From contig NC_092091.1 of assembly GCF_045679555.1 (NCBI RefSeq), forward strand, positions 79,748,144-79,812,143: a stretch of DNA of 64,000 nucleotides, written 5' to 3'. Source of the DNA: Salvelinus alpinus (Eukaryota > Chordata > Actinopteri > Salmoniformes > Salmonidae). How positions within the stretch are numbered: the stretch's first letter is position 1; the number at the start of each line of letters is the position of its first letter. Of this stretch, positions 135 through 64,000 are shown in pieces. A program made the position numbers and the translations under genes. The notes beneath the pieces were generated by a model that worked only from the letters and a program-made list of their open reading frames with translations, did no database searches and was not told the origin of the DNA.

Positions 135-228
135 GAGTTGCCTGCTGTCGAGGAGTTGACTGTTGTTCTACCAGAGGAGGCGGAGATACTGCCCCTAGGA
201 TCAGTCAGCAGTATCATCCAACAGCTGG
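135..228 (+). CDS. naf1: naf1 exon A (start of Gar1-like core domain)
   Basis: The acceptor is a GT-rich tract followed by gtag at 131-134. The exon has 31 codons plus one base and ends CAGCTGG before donor gttagt (229). The next codon would be G+TG (Val), fitting the Val-Ile-Ile that follows in other NAF1 proteins. The last ~35 bases and the donor are the seed of the array that follows. Confidence 0.88.
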
Positions 229-3200
229 GTTAGTCCCTCCACACTACACCTAGGATCAGTCAGCAGTATCATCCAACAGCTGGGTTAGTCCCTCCACCTA
301 GGATCAGTCAGCAGTATCATCCAACAGCTGGGTTAGTCCCTCCACCTAGGATCAGTCAGCAGTATCATCCAACAGCTGGGTTAGTCCCTCCACCTAGGAT
401 CAGTCACCAGTATCATCCAACAGCTGGGTTAGTCCCTCCACCTAGGATCAGTCAGCAGTATCATCCAACAGCTGGGTTAGTCCCTCCACCTAGGATCAGT
501 CAGCAGTATCATCCAACAGCTGGGTTAGTCCCTCCACCTAGGATCAGTCAGCAGTATCATCCAACAGCTGGGTTAGTCCCTCCACCTAGGATCAGTCACC
601 AGTATCATCCAACAGCTGGGTTAGTCCCTCCACCTAGGATCAGTCAGCAGTATCATCCAACAGCTGGGTTAGTCCCTCCACCTAGGATCAGTCAGCAGTA
701 TCATCCAACAGCTGGGTTAGTCCCTCCACCTAGGATCAGTCAGCAGTATCATCCAACAGCTGGGTTAGTCCCTCCACCTAGGATCAGTCAGCAGTATCAT
801 CCAACAGCTGGGTTAGTCCCTCCACCTAGGATCAGTCAGCAGTATCATCCAACAGCTGGGTTAGTCCCTCCACCTAGGATCAGTCAGCAGTATCATCCAA
901 CAGCTGGGTTAGTCCCTCCACCTAGGATCAGTCACTAGTATCATCCAACAGCTGGGTTAGTCCCTCCACCTAGGATCAGTCAGCAGTATCATCCAACAGC
1001 TGGGTTAGTCCCTCCACCTAGGATCAGTCACTAGTATCATCCAACAGCTGGGTTAGTCCCTCCACCTAGGATCAGTCACCAGTATCATCCAACAGCTGGG
1101 TTAGTCCCTCCACACTACACCTAGGATCAGTCAGCAGTATCATCCAACAGCTGGGTTAGTCCCTCCACCTAGGATCAGTCAGCAGTATCATCCAACAGCT
1201 GGGTTAGTCCCTCCACCTAGGATCAGTCACCAGTACCATCCAACAGCTGGGTTAGTCCCTCCACCTAGGATCAGTCAGCAGTATCATCCAACAGCTGGGT
1301 TAGTCCCTCCACCTAGGATCAGTCAGCAGTATCATCCAACAGCTGGGTTAGTCCCTCCACCTAGGATCAGTCAGCAGTATCATCCAACAGCTGGGTTAGT
1401 CCCTCCACCTAGGATCAGTCACCAGTATCATCCAACAGCTGGGTTAGTCCCTCCACCTAGGATCAGTCAGCAGTATCATCCAACAGCTGGGTTAGTCCCT
1501 CCACCTAGGATCAGTCAGCAGTATCATCCAACAGCTGGGTTAGTCCCTCCACCTAGGATCAGTCACCAGTATCATCCAACAGCTGGGTTAGTCCCTCCAC
1601 CTAGGATCAGTCACCAGTATCATCCAACAGCTGGGTTAGTCCCTCCACCTAGGATCAGTCAGCAGTATCATCCAACAGCTGGGTTAGTCCCTCCACCTAG
1701 GATCAGTCAGCAGTATCATCCAACAGCTGGGTTAGTCCCTCCACCTAGGATCAGTCAGCAGTATCATCCAACAGCTGGGTTAGTCCCTCCACCTAGGATC
1801 AGTCAGCAGTATCATCCAACAGCTGGGTTAGTCCCTCCACCTAGGATCAGTCACCAGTACCATCCAACAGCTGGGTTAGTCCCTCCACCTAGGATCAGTC
1901 ACCAGTACCATCCAACAGCTGGGTTAGTCCCTCCACCTAGGATCAGTCACCAGTACCATCCAACAGCTGGGTTAGTCCCTCCACCTAGGATCAGTCACCA
2001 GTACCATCCAACAGCTGGGTTAGTCCCTCCACCTAGGATCAGTCAGCAGTACCATCCAACAGCTGGGTTAGTCCCTCCACCTAGGATCAGTCAGCAGTAT
2101 CATCCAACAGCTGGGTTAGTCCCTCCACCTAGGATCAGTCACTAGTATCATCCAACAGCTGGGTTAGTCCCTCCACCTAGGATCAGTCAGCAGTACCATC
2201 CAACAGCTGGGTTAGTCCCTCCACCTAGGATCAGTCAGCAGTATCATCCAACAGCTGGGTTAGTCCCTCCACCTAGGATCAGTCAGCAGTATCATCCAAC
2301 AGCTGGGTTAGTCCCTACACCTAGGATCAGTCACCAGTATCATCCAACAGCTGGGTTAGTCCCTCCACCTAGGATCAGTCAGCAGTATCATCCAACAGCT
2401 GGGTTAGTCCCTCCACCTAGGATCAGTCACTAGTATCATCCAACAGCTGGGTTAGTCCCTCCACCTAGGATCAGTCAGCAGTATCATCCAACAGCTGGGT
2501 TAGTCCCTCCACCTAGGATCAGTCAGCAGTATCATCCAACAGCTGGGTTAGTCCCTCCACCTAGGATCAGTCACTAGTATCATCCAACAGCTGGGTTAGT
2601 CCCTCCACACTACACCTAGGATCAGTCACCAGTATCATCCAACAGCTGGGTTAGTCCCTCCACACTACACCTAGGATCAGTCAGCAGTATCATCCAACAG
2701 CTGGGTTAGTCCCTCCACCTAGGATCAGTCAGCAGTATCATCCAACAGCTGGGTTAGTCCCTCCACCTAGGATCAGTCACCAGTACCATCCAACAGCTGG
2801 GTTAGTCCCTCCACCTAGGATCAGTCACCAGTATCATCCAACAGCTGGGTTAGTCCCTCCACCTAGGAGCAGTCAGCAGTATCATCCAACAGCTGGGTTA
2901 GTCCCTCCACCTAGGATCAGTCACCAGTATCATCCAACAGCTGGGTTAGTCCCTCCACCTAGGATCAGTCACCAGTATCATCCAACAGCTGGGTTAGTCC
3001 CTCCACCTAGGATCAGTCAGCAGTATCACCCAACAGCTGGGTTAGTCCCTCCACCTAGGATCAGTCACCAGTATCATCCAACAGCTGGGTTAGTCCCTCC
3101 ACCTAGGATCAGTCACCAGTATCATCCAACAGCTGGGTTAGTCCCTCCACCTAGGATCAGTCACCAGTATCATCCAACAGCTGAGTTAGTCCCTCCACCT

Positions 3201-6200
3201 AGGATCAGTCACCAGTATCATCCAACAGCTGGGTTAGTCCCTCCACCTAGGATCAGTCACCAGTATCATCCAACAGCTGGGTTAGTCCCTCCACCTAGGA
3301 TCAGTCACCAGTATCATCCAACAGCTGGGTTAGTCCCTCCACCTAGGATCAGTCACCAGTATCATCCAACAGCTGGGTTAGTCCCTCCACCTAGGATCAG
3401 TCACCAGTATCATCCAACAGCTGGGTTAGTCCCTCCACCTAGGATCAGTCAGCAGTATCATCCAACAGCTGGGTTAGTCCCTCCACCTAGGATCAGTCAC
3501 CAGTATCATCCAACAGCTGGGTTAGTCCCTCCACCTAGGATCAGTCACCAGTATCATCCAACAGCTGGGTTAGTCCCTCCACCTAGGATCAGTCAGCAGT
3601 ATCATCCAACAGCTGGGTTAGTCCCTCCACCTAGGATCAGTCACCAGTATCATCCAACAGCTGGGTTAGTCCCTCCACCTAGGATCAGTCAGCAGTATCA
3701 TCCAACAGCTGGGTTAGTCCCTCCACCTAGGATCAGTCAGCAGTATCATCCAACAGCTGGGTTAGTCCCTCCACCTAGGATCAGTCACCAGTACCATCCA
3801 ACAGCTGGGTTAGTCCCTCCACCTAGGATCAGTCAGCAGTATCATCCAACAGCTGGGTTAGTCCCTCCACCTAGGATCAGTCAGCAGTATCATCCAACAG
3901 CTGGGTTAGTCCCTCCACCTAGGATCAGTCAGCAGTATCATCCAACAGCTGGGTTAGTCCCTCCACCTAGGATCAGTCACCAGTATCATCCAACAGCTGG
4001 GTTAGTCCCTCCACCTAGGATCAGTCAGCAGTATCATCCAACAGCTGGGTTAGTCCCTCCACCTAGGATCAGTCAGCAGTATCATCCAACAGCTGGGTTA
4101 GTCCCTCCACCTAGGATCAGTCACCAGTATCATCCAACAGCTGGGTTAGTCCCTCCACCTAGGATCAGTCACCAGTATCATCCAACAGCTGGGTTAGTCC
4201 CTCCACCTAGGATCAGTCAGCAGTATCATCCAACAGCTGGGTTAGTCCCTCCACCTAGGATCAGTCAGCAGTATCATCCAACAGCTGGGTTAGTCCCTCC
4301 ACCTAGGATCAGTCAGCAGTATCATCCAACAGCTGGGTTAGTCCCTCCACCTAGGATCAGTCAGCAGTATCATCCAACAGCTGGGTTAGTCCCTCCACCT
4401 AGGATCAGTCACCAGTACCATCCAACAGCTGGGTTAGTCCCTCCACCTAGGATCAGTCACCAGTACCATCCAACAGCTGGGTTAGTCCCTCCACCTAGGA
4501 TCAGTCACCAGTACCATCCAACAGCTGGGTTAGTCCCTCCACCTAGGATCAGTCACCAGTACCATCCAACAGCTGGGTTAGTCCCTCCACCTAGGATCAG
4601 TCAGCAGTACCATCCAACAGCTGGGTTAGTCCCTCCACCTAGGATCAGTCAGCAGTATCATCCAACAGCTGGGTTAGTCCCTCCACCTAGGATCAGTCAC
4701 TAGTATCATCCAACAGCTGGGTTAGTCCCTCCACCTAGGATCAGTCAGCAGTACCATCCAACAGCTNNNNNNNNNNNNNNNNNNNNNNNNNNNNNNNNNN
4801 NNNNNNNNNNNNNNNNNNNNNNNNNNNNNNNNNNNNNNNNNNNNNNNNNNNNNNNNNNNNNNNNNNACGGTCAGACACACTGACTACACCCTCTATATCC
4901 TCACTGAGCAGCTACGACGGTCAGTACACACTGACTACACCCTCTACATCCTCACTGAGCAGCTACGACGGTCAGACACACTGACTACACCCTCTACATC
5001 CTCACTGAGCAGCTACGACGGTCACTACACACTGACTACACCCTCTACATCCTCACTGAGCAGCTACGACGGTCACTACACACTGACTACACCCTCTATA
5101 TCCTCACTGAGCAGCTACGACGGTCAGACACACTGACTACACCCTCTACATCCTCACTGAGCAGCTACGACGGTCACTACACACTGACTACACCCTCTAC
5201 ATCCTCACTGAGCAGCTACGACGGTCACTACACACTGACTACACCCTCTATATCCTCACTGAGCAGCTACGACGGTCAGACACACTGACTACACCCTCTA
5301 TATCCTCACTGAGCAGCTACGACGGTCAGACACACTGACTACACCCTCTATATCCTCACTGAGCAGCTACGACGGTCAGTACACACTGACTACACCCTCT
5401 ATATCCTCACTGAGCAGCTACGACGGTCACTACACATGTTTAATTGAAGCTGTGTGTTTTTAGGTTGAAAGGCTCCGACGCGTCCTGGAAGAATGACCAG
5501 GAACCACCACCAGAGGTGAGGAACACACAGGTCCTGTCTGAATACCCAGACTGCCTTCTAAATAGTAGACAGAGGAACACACGGGTCCTGTCTGAATACC
5601 CATACTGCCTTCTAAATAGTAGACAGAGGAACACACAGGTCCTGTCTGAATACCCATACTGCCTTCTAAATAGTAGACAGAGGAACACACAGGTCCTGTC
5701 TGAATACCCATACTGCCTTCTAAATAGTAGACAGAGGAACACACGGGTCCTGTCTGAATACCCATACTGCCTTCTAAATAGTAGACAGAGGAACACACAG
5801 GTCCTGTCTGAATACCCATACTGCCTTCTAAATAGTAGACAGAGGAACACACAGGTCCTGTCTGAATACCCATACTGCCTTCTAAATAGTAGACAGAGGA
5901 ACACACAGGTCCTGTCTGAATACCCATACTGCCTTCTAAATAGTAGACAGAGGAACACACAGGTCCTGTCTGAATACCCATACTGCCTTCTAAATAGTAG
6001 ACAGAGGAACACACAGGTCCTGTCTGAATACCCATACTGCCTTCTAAATAGTAGACTCCTCTGTTCTGTCCTCTCTTGTCTCTCCTTTGTCCTGTCCTCT
6101 CTCCTCTGTCCTGTCCTCTCTCCTCTGTCCTGTCCTTTCTCCTCTGTCCTGTCCTCTCTTGTCTCTCCTCTCTCCAGGCGTTGGACTTCAGTGATGATGA

Positions 6201-9200
6201 GGCAGAACATAAGATGAAGAAGAAGAAGAAGAAGGGGAATGTCCAGAAGAACCAGAGAGCTGACCAACAACCAGGTCAGACACTGTTTCAGAGAGAGAGA
6301 GGACAGAGAGCTGACCCACAACCAGGTCAGACACTGTTTCAGAGAGAGAGGGACGTGAAGTCGGAGAATCTGATGGTCTCGTCGGTTTGACCTCCTTCTG
6401 ACACGAGCAATTCAACAGCCAATCACCACAGAGCACAGGGGCGTTCCCAGAGCACATTGTTGGTGCACAGAAAGCACATAGTGCTGTATTTGATGAAAGG
6501 CAGGCGACATCGTCTTTTGATTTCTCTAGAAAGGTGTTGTGGGTGACGGTGCAAAGCATCAGATTAGGGGAGAATGGGGCTGTGTCACACGGTTATCTGG
6601 GTTGTATTTCTCAACACCAGTAGGTTATCTGATGGTGTATTTCTCATCACCAGTAGGTTATCTGATGGGGTGTATTTCACCTCACCAGTAGGTTATCTGA
6701 TGGGGTGTATTTCTCAACACCAGTAGGTTATCTGATGGGGTGTATTTCTCATCACCAGTAGGTTATCTGATGGGGTGTATTTCTCATCACCAGTAGGTTA
6801 TCTGATGGGGTGTATTTCTCAACACCAGTAGGTTATCTGATGGGGTGTATTTCTCAACACCAGTAGGTTATCTGATGGGGTGTATTTCTCAACACCAGTA
6901 GGTTATCTGATGGGGTGTATTTCTCAACACCAGTAGGTTATCTGATGGGGTGTATTTCTCATCACCAGTAGGTTATCTGATGGGGTGTATTTCTCATCAC
7001 CAGTAGGTTATCTGATGGGGTGTATTTCTCATCACCAGTAGGTTATCTGATGGGGTGTATTTCTCAACACCAGTAGGTTATCTGATGGGGTGTATTTCTC
7101 AACACCAGTAGGTTATCTGATGGGGTGTATTTCTCATCACCAGTAGGTTATCTGATGGGGTGTATTTCTCATCACCAGTAGGTTATCTGATGGGGTGTAT
7201 TTCTCAACACCAGTAGGTTATCTGATGGGGTGTATTTCTCAACACCAGTAGGTTATCTGATGGGGTGTATTTCTCATCACCAGTAGGTTATCTGATGGGG
7301 TGTATTTCTCATCACCAGTAGGTTATCTGATGGGGTGTATTTCTCATCACCAGTAGGTTATCTGATGGGGTGTATTTCTCATCACCAGTAGGTTATCTGA
7401 TGGGGTGTATTTCTCAACACCAGTAGGTTATCTGATGGGGTGTATTTCTCAACACCAGTAGGTTATCTGATGGGGTGTATTTCTCATCACCAGTAGGTTA
7501 TCTGATGGGGTGTATTTCTCATCACCAGTAGGTTATCTGATGGGGTGTATTTCTCATCACCAGTAGGTTATCTGATGGGGTGTATTTCTCATCACCAGTA
7601 GGTTATCTGATGGGGTGTATTTCTCATCACCAGTAGGTTATCTGATGGGTGTATTTCTCATCACCAGTAGGTTATCTGATGGGGTGTATTTCTCATCACC
7701 AGTAGGTTATCTGATGGGGTGTATTTCTCATCACCAGTAGGTTATCTGATGGGGTGTATTTCTCATCACCAGTAGGTTATCTGATGGGGTGTATTTCTCA
7801 TCACCAGTAGGTTATCTGATGGGGTGTATTTCTCATCACCAGTAGGTTATCTGATGGGTGTATTTCTCATCACCAGTAGGTTATCTGATGGGGTGTATTT
7901 CTCATCACCAGTAGGTTATCTGATGGGGTGTATTTCTCATCACCAGTAGGTTATCTGATGGGGTGTATTTCTCAACACCAGTAGGTTATCTGATGGGGTG
8001 TATTTCTCATCACCAGTAGGTTATCTGATGGGGTGTATTTCTCATCACCAGTAGGTTATCTGATGGGGTGTATTTCTCATCACCAGTAGGTTATCTGATG
8101 GGGTGTATTTCTCATCACCAGTAGGTTATCTGATGGGGTGTATTTCTCATCACCAGTAGGTTATCTGATGGGGTGTATTTCTTAACACCAGTAGGTTATC
8201 TGATGGTGTATTTCTCATCACCAGTAGGTTATCTGATGGGGTGTATTTCACATCACCAGTAGGTTATCTGATGGGGTGTATTTCTCATCACCAGTAGGTT
8301 ATCTGATGGGGTGTATTTCTCATCACCAGTAGGTTATCTGATGGGGTGTATTTCACATCACCAGTAGGTTATCTGATGGGGTGTATTTCACATCACCAGT
8401 AGGTTATCTGATGGGGTGTATTTCACATCACCAGTAGGTTATCTGATGGTGTATTTCTCATCACCAGTAGGTTATCTGATGGGGTCTATTTCTCAACACC
8501 AGTAGGTTATCTGATGGGTGTATTTCTCAACACCAGTAGGTTATCTGATGGGGTGTATTTCTCATCACCAGTAGGTTATCTGATGGGGTGTATTTCTCAA
8601 CACCAGTAGGTTATCTGATGGGGTGTATTTCTCATCACCAGTAGGTTATCTGATGGGGTGTATTTCTCATCACCAGTAGGTTATCTGATGGGGTGTATTT
8701 CTCAACACCAGTAGGTTATCTGATGGGGTGTATTTCTCATCACCAGTAGGTTATCTGATGGGGTGTATTTCTCATCACCAGTAGGTTATCTGATGGGGTG
8801 TATTTCTCATCACCAGTAGTTTATCTGATGGGGTGTATTTCTCATCACCAGTAGGTTATCTGATGGGGTGTATTTCACATCACCAGTAGGTTATCTGATG
8901 GTGTATTTCTCATCACCAGTAGGTTATCTGATGGTGTATTTCTCATCACCAGTAGGTTATCTGATGGTGTATTTCTCATCACCAGTAGGTTATCTGATGG
9001 GGTGTATTTCACCTCACCAGTAGGTTATCTGATGGGGTGTATTTCTCAACACCAGTAGGTTATCTGATGGTGTATTTCACCTCACCAGTAGGTTATCTGA
9101 TGGGGTGTATTTCTCAACACCAGTAGGTTATCTGATGGGGTGTATTTCTCAACACCAGTAGGTTATCTGATGGGGTGTATTTCTCAACACCAGTAGGTTA

Positions 9201-37154: not shown

Positions 37155-37260
37155 ATAAACTATTAAATTCTCTGTTGGTCAATAATTCAGTATTTAATGT
37201 TCAGGCTAATAACTAAATATTTGGCGTTCCCCCAACGTACAAGACCAGCGAATTCAACGT

Positions 37261-37522: not shown

Positions 37523-40500
37523 GTAAGTAGACCAACGATGGTTCCTACGGTACTGCTAACGATAGATCCCCTTCTATAGTCCAATAAACTAACAGACAGG
37601 TAACCCAACGTTAACGTTAGTTCACACCTACCAGCAATTTGTCCAATATAAACTCGTTTTCTTTGCGAAACGTTTTCCGTTTGGAGTAAACTGTTTCTGT
37701 TGCAAAACGGCGTAATGAATAGAACCGTGTTCACTAACCCTGAATAACTCAGACAGGTAAAACGGGGTAATGAACCGTGTTCACTAACCCTGAATAACTC
37801 AGACAGGTAAAACAGGGTAATGAACCGGGTTCACTAACCCTGAATAACTCATAGACAGGTAAAACAGGGTAATGAACCGTGTTCACTAACCCTGAATAAC
37901 TCAGACAGGTAAAACAGGGTAATGAACCGTGTTCACTAACCCTGAATAACTCAGACAGGTAAAACAGGGTAATGAACCGTGTTCACTAACCCTGAATAAC
38001 TCATAGACAGGTGAGATGCTATGTTAGTTCCCACTCCAGACAATAGACAGAGTGTTTAGCTATGTCAGTCTGTCACCAGGTGAATGTACTGTATCCGTGG
38101 TAGCGGCAGGACTGTGTGTGATTGGTTGTTGTAGCACAGTGAGGTGTATCGGTGTGTTTCAGAGGGTGACTCCCGGGATGGACGACTTTCTGCAGCGTCT
38201 GCGGCGGCGTGTTCGAGTCGGCGTGGTGGGGGGGTCGGACTTCGTCAAGATCAAAGAACAACTGGGAGATGATGGTGTGTGTCTGGGGGGGGGTTAAGGT
38301 GTGTCTGGGAGGGGGGGGGTTAAGGTGTGTCTGGGAGGGAGGGGGGGGGGGTTAAGGTGTGTCTGGGAGGGAGGGAGGGAGGGGGTTAAGGTGTGTCTGG
38401 GAGGGAGGGAGGGAGGGAGGGGGTTAAGGTGTGTCTGGGAGGGAGGGGGGGGTTAAGGTGTGTCTGGGAGGGAGGGGGGGGTTAAGGTGTGTCTGGGAGG
38501 GAGGGGGGGGTTAAGGTGTGTCTGGGAGGGAGGGGGGGGTTAAGGTGTGTCTGGGAGGGGGGGGGTTAGGTTGTGCCCCCTGAACATAGACAGGTTCCAC
38601 ACTGAAAATATACCAAAACATGACTTTGATAAAGACGCATTTTAATCCGAATCATTAAGCCTTAGGTTGGAGTCATTCAAACTCATTTTTCAACCACTCC
38701 ACACATTTCTTGTTAACAAACTATAGTTTTGGCAAGTCGGTTAGGACATCTACGTTGTACATGACACAAGTACTTTTTCCAACAATTGTTTACAGACAGA
38801 TTATTTCACTTATCATTCACTGTATCACAATTCCAGTGGGTCAGAAGTTTACATACACTAAGTTGACTGTGCCTTTAAACAGCTTGGAAAATCCCAGAAA
38901 ATGTCATGGCTTTAGAAGCTTCTGATAGGCTAATTGACATCATTTGAGTCAATTGGAGGTGTACCTGTGGATGTATTTCAAGGCCTATCTTCAAACTCAG
39001 TGCCTCTTTGCTTGACATCATGGGGAAATCAGCCAAGACCTCAGAAATAGATTGTAGACCTCCACAAGTCTGGTTCATCCTTGGGAGCAATTTCCACACG
39101 CCTGAAGGTACCACGTTCATCTGTACAAACAATAGTACGCAAGTATAAACACCATGGGACCACGCAGCCGTCATACCGCTCAGGAAGGAGACGCGTTCTG
39201 TCTCCTAGAGATGAATGTACTTTGGTGCGAAAAGTGCAAATCAATCCCAGAACAACAGCAAAGGACCTTTGTGAAGATGCTGGAGGAAACGGGTACAAAA
39301 GTATCTATATCCACAGTAAAACGAGTCTTATATCGGCATAACCTGAAAGGCCGCTCAGCAAGGAAGAAGCCACTGCTCTAAAACCGCCATAAAAAAGCCA
39401 GACTACGGTTTGCAACTACAGATGGGGACAAAGATCGTACTTTTTGGAGAAATGTCCTCTGGTCTGATGAAACAAAAATAGAACTGTTTGGCCATAATGA
39501 CCATCGTTATGTTTGGAGGGAAAAGGGGGAGGCTTGCAAGCCGAAGAACACCATCCCAACCGTGAAGCACGGGGGTGGCAGCATCATGTGGGTGCTTTGC
39601 TGCAGGAGGGACTGGTGCACTTCACAAAATAGATGGCATCATAAGGGAGGAAAATTATGTGGATATATTGAAGCAACATCTCAAGACATCAGTCAGGAAG
39701 TTGAAGCTTGGTCGCAAATGGGTCTTCCAAATGGACAATGACCCAAAGCATACTTCCAAACAGGGCGTCAAGGTATTAGAGTGGCCATCACAAAGCCCTG
39801 ACCTCAATCCTGTAGAAAGTTTGTGGGCAGAACTGAAAAAGCGTGTGCGAGCAAAGAGTCCTACAAACCTGACTCAGTTACACCAGCTCTGTCAGGAGGA
39901 ATGAGCCAAAATTCACCCAACTTATTGTGGGAAGCTTGTGGAAGGCTACCTGAAACGTTTGACCCAAGTTAAACAATTTAAAGGCAATGCTCCCAAATAC
40001 TAATTGAGTTTATGTAAACTTCTGACCCACTGGGAATGTGATGAAAGAAATAAAAGCTGAAATAAATCATTCTCTCTACTATTATTCTGACATTTCACAG
40101 TCTTCAAATAAAGTGGTGATCCTAACTGACCTAAGACAGGGAATTTTTACTTGGATTAAATATCAGGAATTGTGAAAAACTGAGTATAAATATATTTGGC
40201 TAAGGTAAACTTCTGACTTCAACTGTATTATGCAACGTTGTGTTGCTGTTGTAGATAAATAAGCACATGGTTTTTCCAGGCCTTGTGTTCTAAAAATAGT
40301 AAAACATTTTCCATTACTAGTAAAAAGAATAATGCAGTACTGGAACAGTCCAACTAGGTCAAATACCCAAGTACATAGTCTGGTATACTGTCAAATACCC
40401 AAGTACGTAGTCTGGTATACTGTCAAATACCCAAGTACGTAGTCTGATATACTGTCAAATACCCAAGTACATAGTCTGATATACTGTCAAATACCCAAGT

Positions 40501-43500: not shown

Positions 43501-45672
43501 TGATAGATTTCAGAGGCCCGAAAGATTCTGGAGTCATGGACTGAGCCAGGCCATTTTGCCACAACATTGCTGATCACACAGTCAGCATTGCAGACCATCT
43601 GAAATCATAAGATGAGGAATATTACACCAATCAATGCACATCACTGGCAATGCAGAGTGTTCGTCAATGGACAATATCAAAAAGTTATGTTCACCTGAAC
43701 ATTAATGCTGTGAAAGGATTTCCTATTCACAAAATCGGCCTCATGGGCACCTGAGGGGGCTTTTATCCTTATGTGTGTGCAGTCCACTGCACCAATGACA
43801 TTGGGGAAACCTGTCACACAAAGTAATGAGTATCCTACTATGTGTTAACAGTTGTCCTGTAATTTGTAGATCCTCTTACCTGCAATCCTATAGAACTCCT
43901 CTTTGATGTCACAGAGTCTTCTGTGGCCAGGGAAGGAGATGAAGACATCTGCTAATGCTTTGATAGCCAGACACACACTCCTTATTGTGCGGCAAATTGT
44001 GGCCTTGTTCAGCTGTTCTGCATCCCCCACTGAGTACAGGAAGGCTCCACTAGCAAAAAAGCGCAAGGCCACACAAACCATTTGCTCCACACTCAGTGCA
44101 TGGCTCCGTGCAGTGCGGTGCTTAATCCTGGGACCCAGTAGTCTGCATAGATACCTGATGCCATCTGCAGAAAACCTGTATCTTTCATATAGATGGTCAT
44201 CAGGGAAGGCCAGTGGGTCCAACCGGTCCCTGAAGACCCTTTCTCGCCTGAAGGCTCTCCTCAGCACAAGTGCTTCTTCATCCACCACATCTCGCACGAA
44301 TGGGCATGCCATTGTCAGAGCAGAAAGGAACACACAATTTTGGCCCTTCATATAGGCTAGTGGCCACACCTGGTGCTGGGGGGGTGGGCAAAAGAGGGCG
44401 ATGCCTTATAACGATGACTTGGTTGTACTGATTGCTGGGAAAATAAAAAAAACCTTAGAAAGATGCCACCGTCCTGTGTGCTCACAATAAGAGCTCATAT
44501 GTCATGGCTCACTTGACTTTACGAGAATATACCTAATTTTTATTTTGAGCTGTGTCATCTTCTTGGAGCTGGGGGAGGAAAGAAAAATAATGATTAATAC
44601 ATTTGTGTTACAGTTAGCATACAGTGTACATTGAAGGCATATCTCACCTCCCTCTCAAGTTTTTTTATTTCAAGGTCCAGTTTCCTAATTGTCCTCTTTT
44701 TTATTTCGGACTCCAGTGCAAGATTTTCCATCTTTTTCTTCTTGTACTGAATGTCTATGTCTGCCAGTTCTATTTGGCGCCGGAGGTGGTTGCCATACAA
44801 CTTTCTGATAGCTTGTGAGCTCTGTGAACACAATACAATTAGCGCAGCTGGAATTTGGCAGGATGTGGTGTCCTTTTATTAATACGCACTATGTTGCCAG
44901 GCTGGTTTTCCCACTGTATAGCATCTGGGTCCTGTAAAAGAAATTAGATTTTTTGATTTTGATGAGGACTCCTCACCATTGTAGAGTAAATAGTACTTTC
45001 ACAGTCTTAACATGATACCTCATGCCTTCTGGAATCCAGAGAGATGGTCTCCTCCTCATCATCGTCTCCATCATGTGCTGTTGCTGCTGCACTGGGGCCT
45101 TCACCCTATCACATTTAATCGGATTCATATTGAAGCTAGTAGACAAGACATGCCAGGCCTACAGTATGCCTTTGATGGAGTACTCACTGGATCAGCATCG
45201 TCTGGTGCTTGTGCTGGTGGCTCTAACAGGAACACAGTGCTGCCAGACACTGCAAGGCAATAGGTAAACCAAAGTCAGACAGTCCAAATTGATTCAATAT
45301 GAATGTGGTTGTATCCCATGTAGAGATGGAAGGACATACCTTGAATGAAGCGGGTGGCATCTTGGGAGGAACCTATGCTCGTCTCTTTCCCCCCAGGGAT
45401 CCTCTCTAAGACGGGCCTGCCTTTATTTAGCTCCAAGGCCATGTCCTCTGCTGGGGTAAGGTCAGCCTTTGGTGACCCACCACCCGTGCCTTGTCTGTGG
45501 GTATTCTTTTTCACTGCTAAAACAGTACAGACAATGTGTGAGCAGGCACCTTCTGGGTACAATATATGCTTGTGCTTTGTTAAATATTAGTCAAGGACCA
45601 TACCATTCTGCAGAATGTTCTTGTATTTGATTTTGACCTGCTGCCATGTCCGTTTTGGCCCGTTCATGTTTA

Positions 45673-45746
<74 letters not shown>

Positions 45747-47831
45747 TTAATGGAGTCACACTGCAAAAAATTACTTGGTATTTTTGTCTTGTTTTCAGTA
45801 AAAATATCAAAAAATTTATCATAGCTTTATACAGTGTGATGGAGTTACTTTACACAATTTCACTCATATCTGCAGTGCATTTCAATTAAAAATTTAACCG
45901 TTTCATAATTACAGTACAACTGCATTTTTGGAGATGTGAATTAAATATTTGAATTGTAATTGTGATGTTTCAGCGGAGCGGTGAGTGTGTAATTGTGCAC
46001 TACTTACGCATTCAGGCGGTCTGCAATACTTTGCCACGCTTTTTCTCTTTGCTTTATCACTGTGGCGGTGTTGCCTTTCTTCTTAATTATATCTTTTACC
46101 TCCTCGTATGCCTCCATGAGGATTTGTGCTTCCGACGGGGAAAAGTACGCGGCTCTAGTTGCCATGGTAAATCAGTTAATCTGTGATCTGTGGCGGGGTC
46201 TATTTGAGTGAGCCGTGAGCGCGCACCTATCCAGGATTGGTTTCACCTGGCTTAATGAATCCGTGTCTGCTCATCCTGGCTTGGTCTTTGTGCAACCAAT
46301 TAAGCCTGGACGCACATGTTTTGGCTTCATTGAGCTCAGCTGAGTCATTTATCCCGGATGTCTTAATTCTACTTTTGTGCAACAGGCCCCTGGTGGCCAA
46401 CTACAAGAAACGTCTGACCTCTGTGATTGTCAACAAGGGTTTTTCCACCAAGTACTAAGTCATGTTTTGCAGAGGGGTCAAATACTTATTTCCCTCATTA
46501 AAATGCAAATCAATTCATAACATATTTGACATGCGTTTTTCTGGATTTTTTTGTTGATATTCTGTCTCTCACTGTTCAAATAAACCTACCATTAAAATTA
46601 TAGACTGATCATTTCTTTGTCAGTGGGCAAACGTACAAAATCAGCAGGGGATCAAATACTTTTTTCCCTCACTGTAGTCTGATATACTGTCAAATACCCA
46701 AGTACATAGTCTGATATACTGTCAAATACCCAAGTACATAGTCTGATATACTGTCAAATACCCAAGTACATAGTCTGATATACTGTAAACATGGCTGGAA
46801 TGCTGTTCAACTAGCCAGTTTACTCCTCCAATCAGGCCTTTATGGTAGAGTGGCCAGACAGAAGCCACTCCTCAGTAAAAGGCACATGACAGCCCGCTTG
46901 GAGTTTGACAAAAGGCACCTAAAGACTCTCAAACCATGAGAAACGAGATTCTCTGGTGTGATGAAACCAAGATTGAACTCTTTGGCCTGAATGCCAAGCA
47001 CCACGTCTGGAGGAAACCTGGCACCATCCCCACGGTGAAGCATGGTGGTGGCACCATCCCCACGGTGAAGCATGGTGGTGGCAGCATCCCCACGGTGAAG
47101 CATGGTGGTGGCAGCATCATACTGTGAGGATGTTTTTCAGCTGCAGGTACTGGTAGACTAGTCAGGATCGAGGGAAAGATGAACGTAGCAAAGTACAGAG
47201 AAAACCTGCTCCAGCGCGCTCAGAACCTCAGACTGGGGTTAAGGTTCACCTTCCAATAGGACAACGACCCTAAGCACACAGCCAAGACAACGCAGGAATG
47301 GCTTCGTGACAAGTCTCTGAATGTCCTTGAGTGGCCCAGCCAGAGCCCAGCCTTGAACACGATTGAACATCTCTGGAGAGACCTGAAAATAGCTGTGCAG
47401 CGACGCTCCCCATTCAACCTGACAGAGCTTGAGAGGATCTGCAGAGAAGAATGGGAGAAACTCCCCAAATACATGTGTGCCAAGCTTGTAGCGTCAGACC
47501 CAAGAAGACTCAAGGCTGTAATCGCTGCAAAAGGTGCTTCAACAAAGTACTGAGTAAAGGGTCTGAATACTTATGTAAATGTGATAGTTTTTTATGTGGA
47601 AAAAGTCAAGGGGACTGAATACTTTCCGAATGCCCTGTATTATTACTGTTTCAGCATTCAGGACCCAAACTAACCCGTTTATCATAAATATAAATAAATA
47701 TAATATATATTCTGCTCTGCAGAATCACTGATCAACCAATAACGTGTGTGTGTGTGTGTGAGAGAGTCAACTGATCCGTCAGGTTGTATTTAGCTGCTCT
47801 GACCTTCTCAGCTCTTCTCTGTAAAGGTCGT

Positions 47832-47890
<59 letters not shown>

Positions 47891-48016
47891 ACGCACACAC
47901 AGACACACGCACACACACACACTAAAACATCATTGATCTTTACTGCATGAATGAGTCCGTCACAACGGGTGAGTTTTAGTTAGTCAATAGTTTACTACAT
48001 TAAATAGTTTACCGCA

Positions 48017-48047
<31 letters not shown>

Positions 48048-51000
48048 GTACTGATATATGTATTTGTGTGTCGTAGTGTTGGAGAAGGTGGACTACCTGT
48101 TTGCTGAAAACGGACTGGTGGCCTATCAGAACGGACAGCTGGTAGCAGTACAGGTAAGACCTGACCTCTAACCTTTGATGCTCCCACGTGGTTTATTGAC
48201 CAAGATGGACATGTTGTAGTCACTGGTTGTTTCAGAGGATCCAGGGCTGTGATTGGTTGTTTCAGAGTATCCAGGCGTACATGGGGGAGGATCTTCTTCA
48301 AGACTTCATCAACTTCTGTCTCAACTACCTGGCCAAGATTACACTACCCAGGAAGAGGTACACACTCTCTCTCTCTCACACCATCTCTGTCTGTCTCAAC
48401 TACCTGGCCAAGATTACACTACCCAGGAAGAGGTACACACTGTCTCTCTCTCTCTCTCTCTCTCACACACCATCTCTGTCTGTCTCAACTACCTGGCCAA
48501 GATTACACTACCCAGGAAGAGGTACACACTGTCTCTCTCTCTCTCACACACCATCTCTGTCTGTCTCAACTACCTGGCCAAGATTACACTACCCAGGAAG
48601 AGGTTACACACTGTCCCTCTCTCTCTCTCTCTCTCTCACACCATCTCTGTCTGTCTCAACTACCTGGCCAAGATTACACTACCCAGGAAGAGGTACACAC
48701 TGTCTCTCTCACACTCACACCATCTCTGTCTGTCTCAACTACCTGGCCAAGATTACACTACCCAGGAAGAGGTACACACTGTCTCTCTCTCTCACACCAT
48801 CTCTGTCTGTCTCAACTACCTGGCCAAGATTACACTACCCAGGAAGAGGTACACACTGTCTCTCTCTCTCACACCATCTCTGTCTGTCTCAACTACCTGG
48901 CCAAGATTACACTACCCAGGAAGAGGTACACACTGTCTTTCTCTCTCACACCATCTCTGTCTGTCTCAACTACCTGGCCAAGATTACACTACCCAGGAAG
49001 AGGTACACACTGTCTCTCTCACACCATCTCTGTCTGTCTCAACTACCTGGCCAAGATTACACTACCCAGGAAGAGGTTACACACTGTCCCTCTCTCTCTC
49101 TCTCTCTCTCTCACACCATCTCTGTCTGTCTCAACTACCTGGCCAAGATTACACTACCCAGGAAGAGGTACACACTGTCTCTCTCTCTCACACCATCTCT
49201 GTCTGTCTCAACTACCTGGCCAAGATTACACTACCCAGGAAGAGGTACACACTGTCTCTCTCTCTCTCACACACCATCTCTGTCTGTCTCAACTACCTGG
49301 CCAAGATTACACTACCCAGGAAGAGGTACACACTGTCTCTCTCACACTCACCCCACCTCTGTCTGTGTCTCCTCAGGGGGACGTTTATAGAGTTCCGTAA
49401 TGGAATGTTGAACGTGTCACCTGTCGGGCGGAGCTGCAGTCAGGAGGAGAGGATAGAGTTCTACCAGCTGGACCAAGTATGGAGGGAGGATGTCTGTCTG
49501 TCAGTCTGTGTCCTTAGCTCACTTTGATTGACAGCTGTCTCTCAACAGAAAGAACGAATCAGAGAGAAGTTTGTTGCCGTTCTTCAGGAGGAGTTTAAAG
49601 GCAAAGGACTGACCTTCTCANNNNNNNNNNNNNNNNNNNNNNNNNNNNNNNNNNNNNNNNNNNNNNNNNNNNNNNNNNNNNNNNNNNNNNNNNNNNNNNN
49701 NNNNNNNNNNNNNNNNNNNNCCTCTTATCCGAAGGACTGGACTTCTCTATAGGTGAGTCTGACCTCTAACCCTAAAGACTGGACTTCTCTATAGGTGAGT
49801 CTGACCTCTAACCCTAAAGACTTCTCTATAGGTGAGTCTGACCTCTAACCCTAAAGACTTCTCTATAGGTGAGTCTGACCTCTAACCCTAAAGACTGGAC
49901 TTCTCTATAGGTGAGTCTGACCTCTAACCCTAAAGACTTCTCTAGAGGTGAGTCTGACCTCTAACCCTAAAGACTGGACTTCTCTATAGGTGAGTCTGAC
50001 CTCTAACCCTAAAGACTTCTCTATAGGTGAGTCTGACCTCTAACCCTAAGGACTGACATTCTCTATAGGTGGGTTTGACCTCTAACCCTAAAGACTGACC
50101 TTCTCTATAGGTGAGTCTGACCTCTAACCCTAAAGACTGACCTTCTCTATAGGTGAGTCTGACCTCTAACCCTAAATACTGACCTTCTCTATAGGTGAGT
50201 CTGACCTAACCCTAAGGACTGACCTTCTCTATAGGTGAGTCTGACCTCTAACCCTAAAGACTGACCTTCTCTATAGGTGAGTCTGACCTCTAACCCTAAA
50301 GACTTCTCTATAGGTGAGTCTGACCTCTAACCCTAAAGACTTCTCTATAGGTGAGTCTGACCTCTAACCCTAAAGACTTCTCTATAGGTCTGACCTGTAA
50401 CCTCCTTCTCTCCCTCCAGGTGGTCAGATCAGTTTTGATGTCTTCCCAGAGGGCTGGGACAAGCGTTACTGTCTGGGCCTGGTAGAGAAGGACTCCTATC
50501 AAACCATACACTTCTTTGGAGACAAAACTAAACCTGTAAGTAGCTTTATGGTGACCATGACAACCATGTTACCGCTTTATAATGACAACCATGTTACCGC
50601 TTTATGGTGACAACCATGTTATGGCTTTATAATGACAACCATGTTATGGCTTTATAATGACAACCATGTTAATGCTTTATAATGACAACCATGTTACCGC
50701 TTTATAATGACAACCATGTTACCGCTTTATGGTGACAACCATGTTATGGCTTTATAATGACAACCATGTTATGGCTTTATAATGACAACCATGTTAATGC
50801 TTTATAATGACAACCATGTTAATGCTTTATAATGACAACCATGTTACCGCTTTATAATGACAACCATGTTATAATGACAACCATGTTATAGCTTTATAAT
50901 GACAACCATGTTACCGCTTTATAATGACAACCATGTTAATGCTTTATAATGACAACCATGTTAATGCTTTATAATGACAACCATGTTAATGCTTTATAAT

Positions 51001-52992
51001 GACAACCATGTTATAATGACAACCATGTTATAGCTTTATAATGACAACCATGTTACCGCTTTATAATGACAACCATGTTAATGCTTTATAATGACAACCA
51101 TGTTAATGCTTTATGGTGACAACCATGTTATGGCTTTATAATGACAACCATGTTATGGCTTTATAATGACAACCATGTTAATGCTTTATAATGACAACCA
51201 TGTTAATGCTTTATAATGACAACCATGTTATAGCTTTATAATGACGACCATGTTACCGCTTTATAATGACAACCATGTTAATGCTTTATAATGACAACCA
51301 TGTTAATGCTTTATAATGACAACCATGTTATAATGACAACCATGTTACCGCTTTATAATGACAACCATGTTACCGCTTTATAATGACAACCATGTTAATG
51401 CTTTATAATGACAACCATGTTAATGCTTTATAATGACAACCATGTTATAATGACAACCATGTTATAGCTTTATAATGACAACCATGTTATAGCTTTATAA
51501 TGACAACCATGTTATAATGACAACCATGTTATAGCTTTATAATGACAACCCTGTTAATGCTTTATAATGACAACCATGTTAATGCTTTATAATGACAACC
51601 ATGTTAATGCTTTATAATGACAACCATGTTATAGCTTTATAATGACAACCATGTTATAATGACAACCATGTTATAGCTTTATAATGACAACCATGTTATA
51701 GCTTTATAATGACAACCATGTTATAGACAACCATGTTATAGCTTTATAATGACAACCATGTTACCGCTTTATAATGACAACAACCATGTTATAGCTTTAT
51801 AATGACAACCATGTTATAGCTTTATAATGACAACCATGTTACAGCTTTATGACAACAACCATGTTATAGATATATATTAATGTTGACACTGCTTTAGGGG
51901 GGAAACGATATGATGTGTTAATGTTGTGCTTTAGGGGGGAAACGATATGATGTATTAATTCTGTGCTTTAGGGGGGAAACGATATGATGTATTAATGTTG
52001 ACACTGCTTTAGGGGGGAAACGATATGATGTATTAATGTTGACACTGCTTTAGGGGGGAAACGATATGATGTATTAATTCTGTGCTTTAGGGGGGAAACG
52101 ATATGATGTATTAATGTTGTGCTTTAGGGGGGAAACGATATGATGTATTAATTCTGTGCTTTAGGGAGGAAACGATATGATGTATTAATGTTGTGCTTTA
52201 GGGGGGAAACGATATGATGTATTAATGTTGTGCTTTAGGGGGGAAACGATATGATGTATTAATGTTGTGCTTTAGGGGGGAAACGATATGATGTATTAAT
52301 GTTGTGCTTTAGGGAGGAAACGATATGATGTATTAATGTTGTGCTTTAGGGAGGAAACGATATGATGTATTAATGTTGACACTGCTTTAGGGGGGGAACG
52401 ATATGATGTATTAATTCTGTGCTTTAGGGGGGAAACGATATGATGTATTAATGTTGACACTGCTTTAGGGGGGAAACGATATGATGTATTAATTCTGTGC
52501 TTTAGGGGGGAAACGATATGATGTATTAATGTTGACACTGCTTTAGGGGGGAAACGATATGATGTATTAATGTTGACACTGCTTTAGGGGGGAAACGATA
52601 TGATGTATTAATTCTGTGCTTTAGGGGGGAAACGATATGATGTATTAATTCTGTGCTTTAGGGAGGAAACGATATGATGTATTAATGTTGTGCTTTAGGG
52701 GGGAAACGATATGATGTATTAATGTTGTGCTTTAGGGGGGAAACGATATGATGTATTAATGTTGTGCTTTAGGGGGGAAACGATATGATGTATTAATGTT
52801 GTGCTTTAGGGAGGAAACGATATGATGTATTAATGTTGTGCTTTAGGGAGGAAACGATATGATGTATTAATGTTGACACTGCTTTAGGGGGGGAACGACT
52901 ATGAGATCTATGCAGATCCCAGAACCATCGGACATGAAGTCACCTGCCCTGAAGATACACAACGTATCTGTCAAGACCTGTTCTTCAACTGA
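37451..52992 (+). CDS. pmm2: pmm2, phosphomannomutase 2 (eight coding exons)
   Basis: PMM2 converts mannose-6-phosphate to mannose-1-phosphate in the cytosol, the precursor of GDP-mannose and dolichol-P-mannose for N-glycosylation. Coding exons: 37451-37522, 38163-38274, 48077-48153, 48266-48357, 49377-49476, 49549-49620 plus four bases in the gap, 50420-50535, 52888-52992. All junctions are GT-AG with matching phases, giving about 249 residues (human 246). FDVDGTLT in exon 1 is the HAD nucleophile motif (two Asp), GVVGGSD in exon 2 is a conserved substrate-site motif, and GDKTKPGGND across exons 7-8 is the metal-binding HAD motif. LTFS and GGQISF fit PMM2 better than PMM1. Intron 2 is about 9.8 kb and carries nested transposons; introns 4, 6 and 7 are nearly all minisatellite. 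No coding lesion is seen. Confidence 0.95.
37726..38014. repeat. 50-bp minisatellite in pmm2 intron 1 (6 copies)
   Basis: The unit is like tgaataactcagacaggtaa followed by aacagggtaatgaaccgtgt and tcactaaccc. Each copy has a donor-like acaggtaaa. The array starts about 200 bp after exon 1 and shows no copied exon sequence. Confidence 0.93.
38163..38274 (+). CDS. pmm2: pmm2 exon 2
   Basis: The acceptor is gtgtttcag ending at 38162. The exon has 37 codons plus one base: [17 protein letters not shown], then [18 protein letters not shown]. The donor is gtgtgt at 38275, a non-consensus donor that merges into the repeat that follows. Confidence 0.93.
38275..38575 (+). repeat. G-rich minisatellite starting at the exon 2 donor (~9 copies)
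   Basis: The unit is gttaaggtgtgtctgggagg followed by a variable run of G and GGA. Each copy contains ggtgtgt, the sequence at the exon 2 donor. G runs of three to ten repeat throughout, so G-quadruplexes are possible on the sense strand and RNA. Bases 38576-38660 are ordinary intron. Confidence 0.92.
38661..40225 (+). mobile_element. Sleeping Beauty-like Tc1 element, 5'-truncated
   Basis: Sequence from taggttggagtcattc onward matches the salmonid Tc1 family from which Sleeping Beauty was rebuilt. The outer left repeat has lost its first ~30 bases. The inner left repeat gtcagaagtttacatacact is near 38842 and the inner right repeat, its inverse, near 40009-40033. The right end finishes cttctgacttcaactg at 40225 followed by TA, but a few bases are missing from the outer right repeat (aaggtaaacttctgac). 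The element lies in pmm2 intron 2 on the gene's strand and cannot be mobile. Confidence 0.9.
39020..40003 (+). pseudogene. Dead Tc1 transposase (Sleeping Beauty-like)
   Basis: Pieces of a ~340-residue DDE transposase appear in three frames: paired-type helix-turn-helix segment ([20 protein letters not shown]), then [18 protein letters not shown], then [13 protein letters not shown] and [16 protein letters not shown]. Frame changes, an early in-frame deletion or frameshift after MGKSA, a missing segment between HTS and VKVLEWPSQ, and a stop near the end show that it is decayed. Confidence 0.9.
40355..40569. repeat. 32-bp minisatellite, left part (interrupted by Tc1 insertion)
   Basis: The unit is aagtacatagtctgatatac followed by tgtcaaataccc, about seven copies. 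The same array resumes at 46675. Bases 40226-40354 are ordinary intron sequence. Confidence 0.94.
43022..44312 (-). CDS. HARBI1-type Harbinger transposase (4 exons, intact)
   Basis: Exons on the minus strand are 44312-43880, 43810-43695, 43598-43487 and 43392-43022. All introns are GT-AG and phases agree, giving 343 residues, close to HARBI1 (about 349). The start [15 protein letters not shown] is typical; an upstream in-frame ATG at 44369 would add 19 residues. DDE nuclease residues are visible: Asp in [11 protein letters not shown] (exon 2), Asp in [11 protein letters not shown] (exon 3) and Glu in [15 protein letters not shown] (exon 4). GDRGYG also fits the family. No stop or frameshift is seen. 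It is the element's nuclease, expected to act in the nucleus together with the Myb-like partner. It is not the host HARBI1 gene, because it lies between the element's inverted repeats. Confidence 0.93.
44533..46165 (-). CDS. Harbinger Myb/SANT-like DNA-binding protein (8 exons, intact)
   Basis: Minus-strand exons are 46165-46008, 45674-45604, 45516-45340, 45249-45188, 45105-45019, 44931-44890, 44821-44648 and 44568-44533. All junctions are GT-AG in phase; 268 residues in total. The N-terminus [20 protein letters not shown] with [14 protein letters not shown] and [13 protein letters not shown] has the spaced Trp and helical pattern of Myb/SANT-like trihelix proteins (NAIF1/MSANTD type). Then come a polar linker, an acidic patch (DGDDDEEE), and a charged coiled-coil segment ([20 protein letters not shown] onward) ending [11 protein letters not shown]. 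In Harbinger elements this partner imports the nuclease and binds element ends. Head-to-tail order with the nuclease on one strand. Confidence 0.9.
45676..45746. repeat. CA microsatellite
   Basis: About 34 CA dinucleotides lie in the first intron of the Harbinger Myb-like gene, directly next to the exon 2 acceptor (GT-rich on the sense strand). Confidence 0.95.
46675..46790. repeat. 32-bp minisatellite, right part
   Basis: The array seen at 40355-40569 resumes for about three and a half copies after the Tc1 insertion, beginning with the duplicated TA. Confidence 0.93.
46795..47553 (+). pseudogene. Dead Tc1 transposase fragment with an internal triplication
   Basis: [19 protein letters not shown] is followed by three tandem copies of a 30-bp segment encoding [10 protein letters not shown] or [10 protein letters not shown] (about 47023-47112). 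A TGA after SIIL, a TAG before DNDPKHTAK, and frame breaks follow. The C-terminal part [15 protein letters not shown] to STKY and TGA at 47551 is open. Confidence 0.9.
46795..47639 (+). mobile_element. Third Tc1-like element, 5'-truncated
   Basis: It begins in the middle of the transposase coding region and runs through its end to a terminal repeat (gggtctgaatacttatgtaa ... actttccgaatgccctg) followed by TA. The left half and left repeat are missing. It belongs to a different Tc1 family from the two upstream. Confidence 0.87.
47640..48076. repeat. End of pmm2 intron 2: CA repeats and mixed sequence
   Basis: A short stretch with attcaggacccaaactaacc resembles the element at 55.4-55.8 kb. A GT run is at 47742-47760, CA runs at 47833-47920 and 48016-48046. 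No gene is seen. Confidence 0.75.
48077..48153 (+). CDS. pmm2: pmm2 exon 3
   Basis: The acceptor is gtcgtag at 48070-48076 and the donor gtaaga at 48154. The exon completes a Val codon from exon 2 and encodes [20 protein letters not shown] then LVAVQ, phase 0 at the end. Confidence 0.93.
48223..48280 (+). repeat. pmm2: 30-bp duplication of the exon 4 acceptor
   Basis: The run ggttgtttcagaggatccag is followed 30 bp later by ggttgtttcagagtatccag, so the acceptor of exon 4 exists twice (after 48235 and after 48265). Using the first would add ten in-frame residues, [10 protein letters not shown], without a stop. The second gives the conserved protein. Confidence 0.87.
48266..48357 (+). CDS. pmm2: pmm2 exon 4
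   Basis: The exon encodes [20 protein letters not shown] then [10 protein letters not shown] plus two bases (AG), with donor gtacac at 48358. Phase 2 joins G of exon 5 to give Arg, then GTFIEF. Confidence 0.93.
48315..49340 (+). repeat. 71-94-bp minisatellite of pmm2 exon 4 3' end plus donor (13 copies with the original)
   Basis: Each copy repeats the last ~43 bases of exon 4 (from tctgtctcaactacctggcc to acccaggaagag), the donor gtacac or gttaca, and a variable CT run. All three sense frames stay open for more than 1.1 kb, because the repeat has no stop in any frame, but the exon 4 frame ends in a stop at 49388-49390. It fills intron 4 almost completely. Confidence 0.95.
49377..49476 (+). 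CDS. pmm2: pmm2 exon 5
   Basis: The acceptor is ctcctcag at 49369-49376. One base plus 33 codons: [20 protein letters not shown] then [13 protein letters not shown], nearly invariant in PMM proteins. The donor is gtatgg at 49477. The following intron is only 72 nt. Confidence 0.95.
49549..49620 (+). CDS. pmm2: pmm2 exon 6 (3' end in gap)
   Basis: The acceptor is ctcaacag at 49541-49548. The exon encodes [20 protein letters not shown] then LTFS, and then the N gap begins. By comparison with the copies after the gap, the missing end is ATA G before donor gtgagt. Confidence 0.93.
49621..49720. other. Assembly gap of 100 N at the end of pmm2 exon 6
   Basis: A 100-N placeholder. It begins inside exon 6 and ends inside the array made from that exon's end, so the array itself probably broke the assembly. 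Confidence 0.95.
49721..50395 (+). repeat. 36-42-bp minisatellite of pmm2 exon 6 3' end plus donor (~17 copies)
   Basis: The unit is gactgaccttctctatag joined to gtgagtctgacctctaaccc and taaa. The first part equals the end of exon 6 (GACTGACCTTCTC... in the exon) and the second is a consensus donor. Copies alternate between ggacttctct, gaccttctct and a short form lacking five bases. One copy has gtgggt and one has ctagag. In the exon frame a TAA follows soon after each donor. Confidence 0.93.
50420..50535 (+). CDS. pmm2: pmm2 exon 7
   Basis: The acceptor is ctccctccag ending at 50419 and the donor gtaagt at 50536. The exon encodes [20 protein letters not shown] then [23 protein letters not shown] is the start of the HAD metal-site loop. 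Confidence 0.95.
50541..51868 (+). repeat. 25-bp minisatellite at the start of pmm2 intron 7 (~50 copies)
   Basis: The unit is gctttataatgacaaccatg followed by ttaat, ttacc or ttata. It begins five bases into the intron (gtaagtagctttatgg). Short copies without gctttat are interspersed. Confidence 0.94.
51888..52887 (+). repeat. 36-41-bp minisatellite of the pmm2 exon 8 acceptor region (~26 copies)
   Basis: The unit is gctttaggggggaaacgata followed by tgatgtattaatgttgacact, or a shorter form ending gttgtg or tctgtg. It repeats the exon 8 acceptor gctttag and the first ~16 exon bases in slightly altered form (exon: ggggggaacgactatgag). The copy near 52385 has the exon-like gggggggaacga. The real exon 8 is the last copy. 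With the preceding array it fills intron 7 from end to end. Confidence 0.92.
52888..52992 (+). CDS. pmm2: pmm2 exon 8 (last coding exon)
   Basis: The acceptor is gctttag at 52881-52887. The exon encodes [20 protein letters not shown] then [14 protein letters not shown] and TGA at 52990-52992. GGND completes the metal-binding motif begun in exon 7. Confidence 0.95.
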
Positions 52993-54370: not shown

Positions 54371-63663
<9,293 letters not shown>

Positions 63664-63682
<19 letters not shown>

Positions 63683-64000
63683 CTGGAGGGAGAGGAGGGG
63701 GAGGGAGGGAGAGAGAGGGGGGAGAGGGGGAGAGATTAGAAAACACAGCTAGGAGAGAACCACTAGAGGGAGAGAGGGGGAGGGAGGGAGAGAGGGGGAG
63801 AGGGAGAAATTAGAAAACACAGCTAGGAGAGAACCACTAGAGGGAGAGAGGGGGAGAGGGAGAGATTAGAAAACACAGCTGGGGGAGAGGGAGGGAGAGA
63901 GGGAGAGAGGGGGAGAGAGAGAGATTAGAAAACACAGCTGGGGGAGAGGGAGGGAGAGAGGGGGAGAGAGGGGGAGAGGGAGAGATTAGAAAACACAGCT
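63664..64000 (-). repeat. G/A-rich minisatellite containing the tmem144 exon acceptor
   Basis: Units of agggagagagggggagaggg and gagattagaaaacacagct recur. Copies near 63749 and 63826 also contain aggagagaaccactagaggg, which is the acceptor and first ~19 bases of the 63682 exon with one change. The array continues past the window end. Confidence 0.87.

Follow-up and report, generated by a model that had tools for sequence, protein, structure and literature searches.

The window analysed here, a 64,000-nucleotide stretch of the Salvelinus alpinus genome (C6:79748144-79812143, within 2.37 Gb), contains the end of NAF1 and all of PMM2, both on the forward strand, and the 3' part of TMEM144 on the reverse strand. 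Twelve 10-kb tiles around the window were added as flanks, which contribute MARCHF1 and the remainder of TMEM144, giving 184 kb and four genes in all. Exons were placed by sequence reading, by Pfam matches and by tblastn with human proteins, and the gene names rest on these matches; the exon lists, array periods, array starts and spanning labels were entered by hand, for a single assembly that has gaps beside arrays. The features considered below are the following, where a donor carries a GT and an acceptor an AG splice dinucleotide, and where a junction is given as the two positions that it separates:

135-228, forward strand: NAF1 exon A, junction 228/229; the exon itself is the first array copy (the TRF row covers 247-4766)
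192..4766, forward strand: NAF1 exon A donor array; 48-bp unit made of 37 exon and 11 intron nucleotides; 94 copies found, all with GT
4767..4866, no strand: 100-N assembly gap, situated where NAF1 exons are expected
4867..5436, forward strand: NAF1 exon C donor array; 51-bp unit, 11 copies with GT
5518..6056, forward strand: NAF1 exon D array, starting 2 bp inside the intron; unit without significant similarity to the exon end
6253..6354, forward strand: NAF1 exon E donor, two copies of 51 bp
C644:4440-5330, on an unplaced contig: NAF1 exons with an acceptor array; eight copies at about 70-bp spacing, each with an acceptor AG
38277..38565, forward strand: PMM2 exon 2 array, just past the donor (junction 38274/38275)
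48224..48278 (approximate), forward strand: PMM2 exon 4 acceptor, two imperfect copies read by eye
48315..49366, forward strand: PMM2 exon 4 donor array; unit of about 77 bp, CT repeats between copies, 13 copies with GT
49721..50378, forward strand: PMM2 exon 6 donor array; unit of about 40 bp, 17 copies with GT; a 100-N gap lies just before it
50557..51867, forward strand: PMM2 intron 7 array, starting 21 bp from the donor
51890..52904, forward strand: PMM2 exon 8 acceptor array, junction 52886/52887; 37-bp unit, 27 copies with AG
55205..55418, reverse strand: TMEM144 last-intron array, ending 13 bp before the acceptor
58685..59404, reverse strand: TMEM144 array beginning 5 bp past the donor at 59409
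59578..60719, reverse strand: TMEM144 exon x donor array, junction 60683/60684; 32 copies with GT
63179..63560, reverse strand: TMEM144 array beginning 3 bp past the donor at 63563
63665..64000, reverse strand: TMEM144 exon w acceptor array, junction 63682/63683; 3 copies with AG found

Within the 184 kb, every array consensus no more than 400 bp away was aligned across each of 45 splice junctions. By this test the array unit contains the exon edge together with its splice site at 9 of 23 donors (MARCHF1 exon 2; NAF1 exons A, C and E; PMM2 exons 4 and 6; TMEM144 exons x, t4 and t2) and at 2 of 22 acceptors (PMM2 exon 8 and TMEM144 exon w)--that is, tandem, minisatellite-like copies span the boundary at 11 of the 45 junctions (NAF1 exon E with two copies only) and at one further acceptor, on the unplaced contig C644. 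At eight additional donors an array starts within about 25 bp, and the remaining six of the 23 (MARCHF1 exon 1, PMM2 exons 1, 3 and 5, and TMEM144 exons z and t1) have no array nearby. For nine of the eleven junction units, the match to the unit's own junction scores 44-87.5, versus a best score of 6.5-12 for arrays elsewhere in the region. The two exceptions are the TMEM144 exon w acceptor unit, which is of low complexity (48 at its own junction, 26.5 elsewhere), and the TMEM144 exon 2 unit (67.5 versus 66), for which the comparison set held other pieces of the same array.

A first-pass annotation of this DNA had reported repeat units holding an exon edge and splice site in NAF1, PMM2 and TMEM144, on both the donor and the acceptor sides, and the alignment test bears this out: every junction array that it named was recovered, save the two-copy acceptor of PMM2 exon 4, which is visible by eye but does not pass the test. 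It had also stated that at least five other arrays begin within a few bases of a splice site. This description suits the NAF1 exon D array (2 bp) and two TMEM144 arrays (5 and 3 bp), but is loose for two or three of the six arrays concerned, namely those at PMM2 exon 7 (21 bp), at the last TMEM144 acceptor (13 bp) and perhaps at PMM2 exon 2, where the array starts 2 bp from the donor by one TRF row and 11 bp from it by the best-scoring row, which was used in the junction test. When the eight arrays that lie near, but do not contain, a donor were compared with the corresponding exon ends, no residual similarity was convincing: the best case was TMEM144 exon t3 (CA-rich on both sides), for which the share of shuffles scoring at least as high was 0.044, followed by PMM2 exon 7 (0.138), with 0.198 or more for the rest. 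The notion that these eight donor-abutting arrays are decayed junction arrays was rejected on this basis.

Outside the window, junction arrays continue in MARCHF1 and in TMEM144 exons 2 and 4. The largest case is TMEM144 intron 2 (C6:79817307-79848044), about 30 kb of DNA that consists mostly of 45-bp copies of the intron's own exon end and donor; of the 564 copies found, 561 keep the GT. Mobile-element insertions lie near one end of this intron, and two near-identical open frames of mobile-element type lie in its last 6 kb. Among the 19 matches listed for a 180-bp piece of the array (three of four candidates scored), 18 are on C6, in its own intron or exon edge, and one weak match (71%) is on contig C34; dispersal of the exon 2 unit was thus rejected, as the matches listed fall, bar that one, at the unit's own locus. 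The TMEM144 paralogues on contigs C7 and C4 have introns at the same exons and no junction array, from which it follows that the TMEM144 introns are older than the arrays; in the paralogue stretches sampled, arrays are absent save for one 46-bp repeat inside a C4 intron. Duplication of the block elsewhere in the genome was likewise considered and rejected, as family searches gave one PMM2 (20 of 20 candidates scored), the rest being read as PMM1, and so was a second TMEM144 of this type, of which a single one was found (23 of 23 candidates scored), the other matches being read as paralogues.

The NAF1 exons that are absent from the window were found, by a Gar1-domain search, on C644 (6,021 bp). 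The sequence of C644 continues into the coding sequence that forms a donor array in the window; because its acceptor array runs into this donor-array coding sequence, one exon appears to carry both an acceptor and a donor array. To judge from exon order, C644 probably belongs in the gap at 4767-4866. Several other repeats occur in the block. One is a 28-kb array in a NAF1 intron (window 6598-34832; 35-bp unit, about 815 copies) that starts about 320 bp after exon E and that the alignment test tied to no junction. Within coding sequence, NAF1 exon 1, about 0.6 kb upstream of the window on C6, contains a 12-bp repeat of about nine copies, and the last NAF1 coding exon (window 36623-36684) contains a proline-rich, low-complexity repeat. 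Intron 3 of MARCHF1, about 43 to 26 kb upstream of the window on C6, holds a 17-kb array with a 37-bp unit and about 467 copies. A second set of the open frames at window 43049-46153, identically ordered, lies some 50 kb upstream on C6; they apparently belong to a two-copy mobile element.

Arrays cover 0.73 of the window, 0.21-1.0 of the 12 flanking tiles and 0.004-0.50 of six arbitrary tiles from elsewhere; two of the latter (0.41 and 0.50) fall within the range of the flanking tiles, so that other array-rich patches exist in the genome. Arrays of at least 60 bp are divided evenly between known gene spans (45, in 10.1 kb of unique sequence) and the DNA outside them (45, in 26.5 kb), and hence are denser per unique base pair inside, in a comparison for which mobile elements were recognised only partly and in which further genes may lie outside the spans. 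Control junctions were taken from PMM1 on contigs C1 and C36, from the TMEM144 paralogues on C7 and C4, and from ten hand-chosen Aldedh regions, which cover 13 of the 19 Aldedh matches listed (12 of 163 candidates scored). Whereas the junction units of the region contain adjoining exon-edge sequence with intact splice dinucleotides, none of the roughly 62 control junctions sampled--a small set of about 30 donors and 32 acceptors, counted by eye--is spanned by an array (11/45 versus 0/62; Fisher P = 3.3e-5, from typed by-eye counts). Similarly, an array of at least 60 bp was found within 25 bp of only one of about 30 control donors, versus 17 of 23 donors in the region (Fisher P = 4.7e-8, again from typed by-eye counts). 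The exceptional control donor belongs to an Aldedh exon far from the window (C8:3245905-3246505), where an array of five copies of a 31-bp unit begins about 10 bp past the donor; the acceptor of the same exon adjoins a GA-rich, low-complexity run.

Whether arrays meet splice junctions more often than expected by chance depends on the null model chosen, and the nulls disagree. In a stratified null, the seeds of 40 arrays were placed randomly within their own introns, over sequence outside of arrays and recognised mobile elements. Under this null, donor-spanning arrays are as numerous as expected (9 versus 8.6; P = 0.50) and acceptor-spanning arrays are depleted (2 versus 8.6; the probability of a count no greater than that observed was printed as 0.000); when arrays within 25 bp are counted as well, there are 20 at donors versus 13.5 expected (P = 0.002) and 8 at acceptors versus 13.5. 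A cruder stratified null, with longer collapsed introns, predicts 5.9 spanning arrays on each side (donor 9, P = 0.094; acceptor 2, P = 0.033). Pooling over introns instead yields an excess of donor-spanning arrays (9 versus 3.2 expected; P = 0.0035) with 2 versus 3.2 at acceptors, and, for spanning or within 25 bp, 20 of 40 arrays versus 5.1 at donors (P = 1.5e-8) and 8 versus 5.1 at acceptors (P = 0.13); three of these 20 donor-near arrays lie behind another array in the same intron. Finally, a per-intron test of 19 of the 20 array-bearing introns (omitting NAF1 intron A, which ends in a gap) finds 8 with a donor-spanning array versus 6.9 expected, or 9.2 when the last 30 bp are barred, and, with that bar, 16 of 19 with an array that spans or lies within 25 bp of the donor versus 11.9 (P = 0.005). 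The comparison with random placement within introns that the first-pass annotation had proposed, carried out here over 184 kb, therefore gives a mixed answer: spanning arrays show no stratified excess and a pooled donor excess, and donor-near arrays are in excess under both nulls, with small numbers.

The shortfall on the acceptor side is partly a matter of which test is applied, being clear under the stratified null but not significant in the plain contrast between donors and acceptors (9/24 versus 3/24 with C644 included; Fisher P = 0.093). The unique sequence left at the two ends of introns also differs, with a median of 2 bp at the 5' end versus 55 bp at the 3' end (Wilcoxon P = 0.035, 19 introns). 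This imbalance fits a constraint imposed by splicing.

The locus is probably best regarded as a vertebrate instance of what have been termed 'mirages' in amphioxus, that is, of minisatellites in which an exon edge happens to fall inside the repeat unit, and as one that short introns and splicing constraint go most of the way to explaining. From this perspective, tandem duplications of roughly 15-120 bp would arise and expand very fast within the block, both inside and outside genes, through some replication or repair process. Because several introns retain merely about 10-130 bp of non-array sequence, a duplication of such a size would often cover a splice junction. Duplication of a donor would be tolerated, inasmuch as the extra copies fall within the intron and the one still attached to the exon can go on serving as the 5' splice site; the outermost copy would then be the one that is spliced. 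The acceptor side would mostly be spared because duplicating that end of the intron would interfere with the polypyrimidine tract and the branch point. The more prosaic of the two interpretations put forward in the first-pass annotation, that arrays simply saturate these short introns, thus accounts for the spanning arrays. It leaves unaccounted for the concentration of arrays in the shortest introns and the abutment of arrays on the donors of several longer ones. The former, which the stratified null hides, involves 16 of the 40 arrays, in introns that now keep less than 150 bp of unique sequence; because unique length is itself partly what the arrays have left over, however, this excess is hard to weigh.

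The latter bears on the other interpretation, namely that a splice donor, or the transcribed stretch immediately behind it, is itself an active seed of tandem duplications, with R-loops or stalled replication at the exon end among the conceivable mechanisms. Eight array-bearing introns keep 150 bp or more of unique sequence; five of these have an array spanning (two) or no more than 6 bp from (three) the donor, versus 1.3-1.4 expected (P = 0.003, post hoc), or four of eight with the 11-bp start for the array at PMM2 exon 2 (P = 0.025, post hoc). Alternative counts point in the same direction: five of eight have an array within 25 bp of the donor versus 1.7-1.8 expected (P = 0.013, post hoc), and counting by arrays gives 5 versus 1.9 (P = 0.033, post hoc). 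Together with the pooled and stratified near-donor excesses and with the array beside the Aldedh donor on C8, these longer introns are what speaks for seeding at donors; at acceptors seeding finds no support. On the other hand, the excess of donor-spanning arrays vanishes once intron length is allowed for, half of the 90 arrays that measure 60 bp or more are located beyond the known gene spans, and the near absence of arrays from control donors implies that donors as such do not seed. Seeding is a rather unlikely explanation of the locus. There is only a modest chance that 5' splice sites, or the first bases of introns, are real hot spots of minisatellite birth in the transcribed genes of this lineage, so that vertebrate introns could be rebuilt almost wholly from copies of their own donors.

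It is very improbable that the arrays are functional, in the sense that their many decoy splice sites regulate the splicing or expression of the host genes. Such a role might be suggested by conservation of the splice dinucleotides: GT is kept in 762 of the 765 copies found in nine donor arrays (the exceptions being those in TMEM144 intron 2) and AG in all 38 copies found in three acceptor arrays, and in none of the seven arrays tested has any ungapped copy lost the dinucleotide. Many other columns are equally intact, however, ranging from 11 of 35 in TMEM144 exon 2 to 54 of 58 in MARCHF1, with 38 of 46 in NAF1 exon A, as homogenisation alone could bring about; hence the intact dinucleotides neither show nor exclude selection on splice sites. 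Moreover, the paralogue stretches of TMEM144 do without such arrays, bar the one repeat on C4, and the same introns here are also filled by arrays without exon sequence. Least probable of all is that collapsed or expanded repeats in the assembly inflate the arrays. Arrays do border on two 100-N gaps, NAF1 exons have ended up on C644 and copy numbers may be wrong. Yet copies differ within arrays (mean column identity 0.965-0.995), the source of the units is the exon next to them and four genes show arrays of this type, so that the arrays themselves would be hard to produce by misassembly.

The locus shows that what had been an oddity of amphioxus genes occurs in a vertebrate too, and in extreme form: a single intron holds upwards of 500 copies of its own donor, in a gene with exons that are still readable. 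Two matters can thereby be put to a natural test, namely how the spliceosome selects one donor when identical ones compete, and how minisatellites originate.

Among known systems, ordinary intronic minisatellites have units of tens of base pairs and high identity between copies. Arrays of this kind, without exon sequence, fill the same introns here; the junction arrays differ from them in that the unit includes a coding edge and a splice site. In fishes, a paper on sea-bream myostatin-2 (PMC3045353) reportedly describes intron repeats, and another (PMC3151243) is said to concern intron insertions in fishes. Zhuo et al. (2007) and Gao and Lynch (2009) are likewise said to have dealt with intron gain by tandem duplication. 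In the Rogers model, which is named in PMC3087553, introns are gained by tandem duplication of segments that contain AGGT, and the likeness to the present arrays is that a duplicated tandem segment carries splice signals. The introns here, however, already existed: for TMEM144, the one gene for which the comparison was made, the paralogues on C7 and C4 have introns without junction arrays, and intron gain from the arrays was accordingly rejected.

The closest parallel is with the mirages themselves, of which the first-pass annotation was unaware when it stated that it knew of no described class of splice-site minisatellites. As characterised in the sections consulted of PMC3087553 and PMC3902484, these are minisatellite-like tandem repeats with units of about 10-160 bp lying across exon/intron boundaries, in the amphioxus genes for Adh3, troponin C and the globins Gb6 and Gb9, with similar repeats in PGBD5; both 5' and 3' boundaries are affected, many copies retain splice signals, RT-PCR suggested normal splicing, and Gb6 has two haplotypes, with 3 and 6 repeat units. 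Within the literature searched, of which coverage was partial, junction minisatellites were recognised only in these two amphioxus papers, and a report from fishes may exist. Membership of the present arrays in this class is judged by sequence features of the DNA of a single assembly. Like the mirages, as far as these sections describe them, the fish arrays are tandem, span the boundary and occur on both donor and acceptor sides; they differ in their host, a fish, in affecting four adjacent genes within a single 184-kb block, and in reaching, in one intron, about 560 copies versus the 3 and 6 of Gb6.
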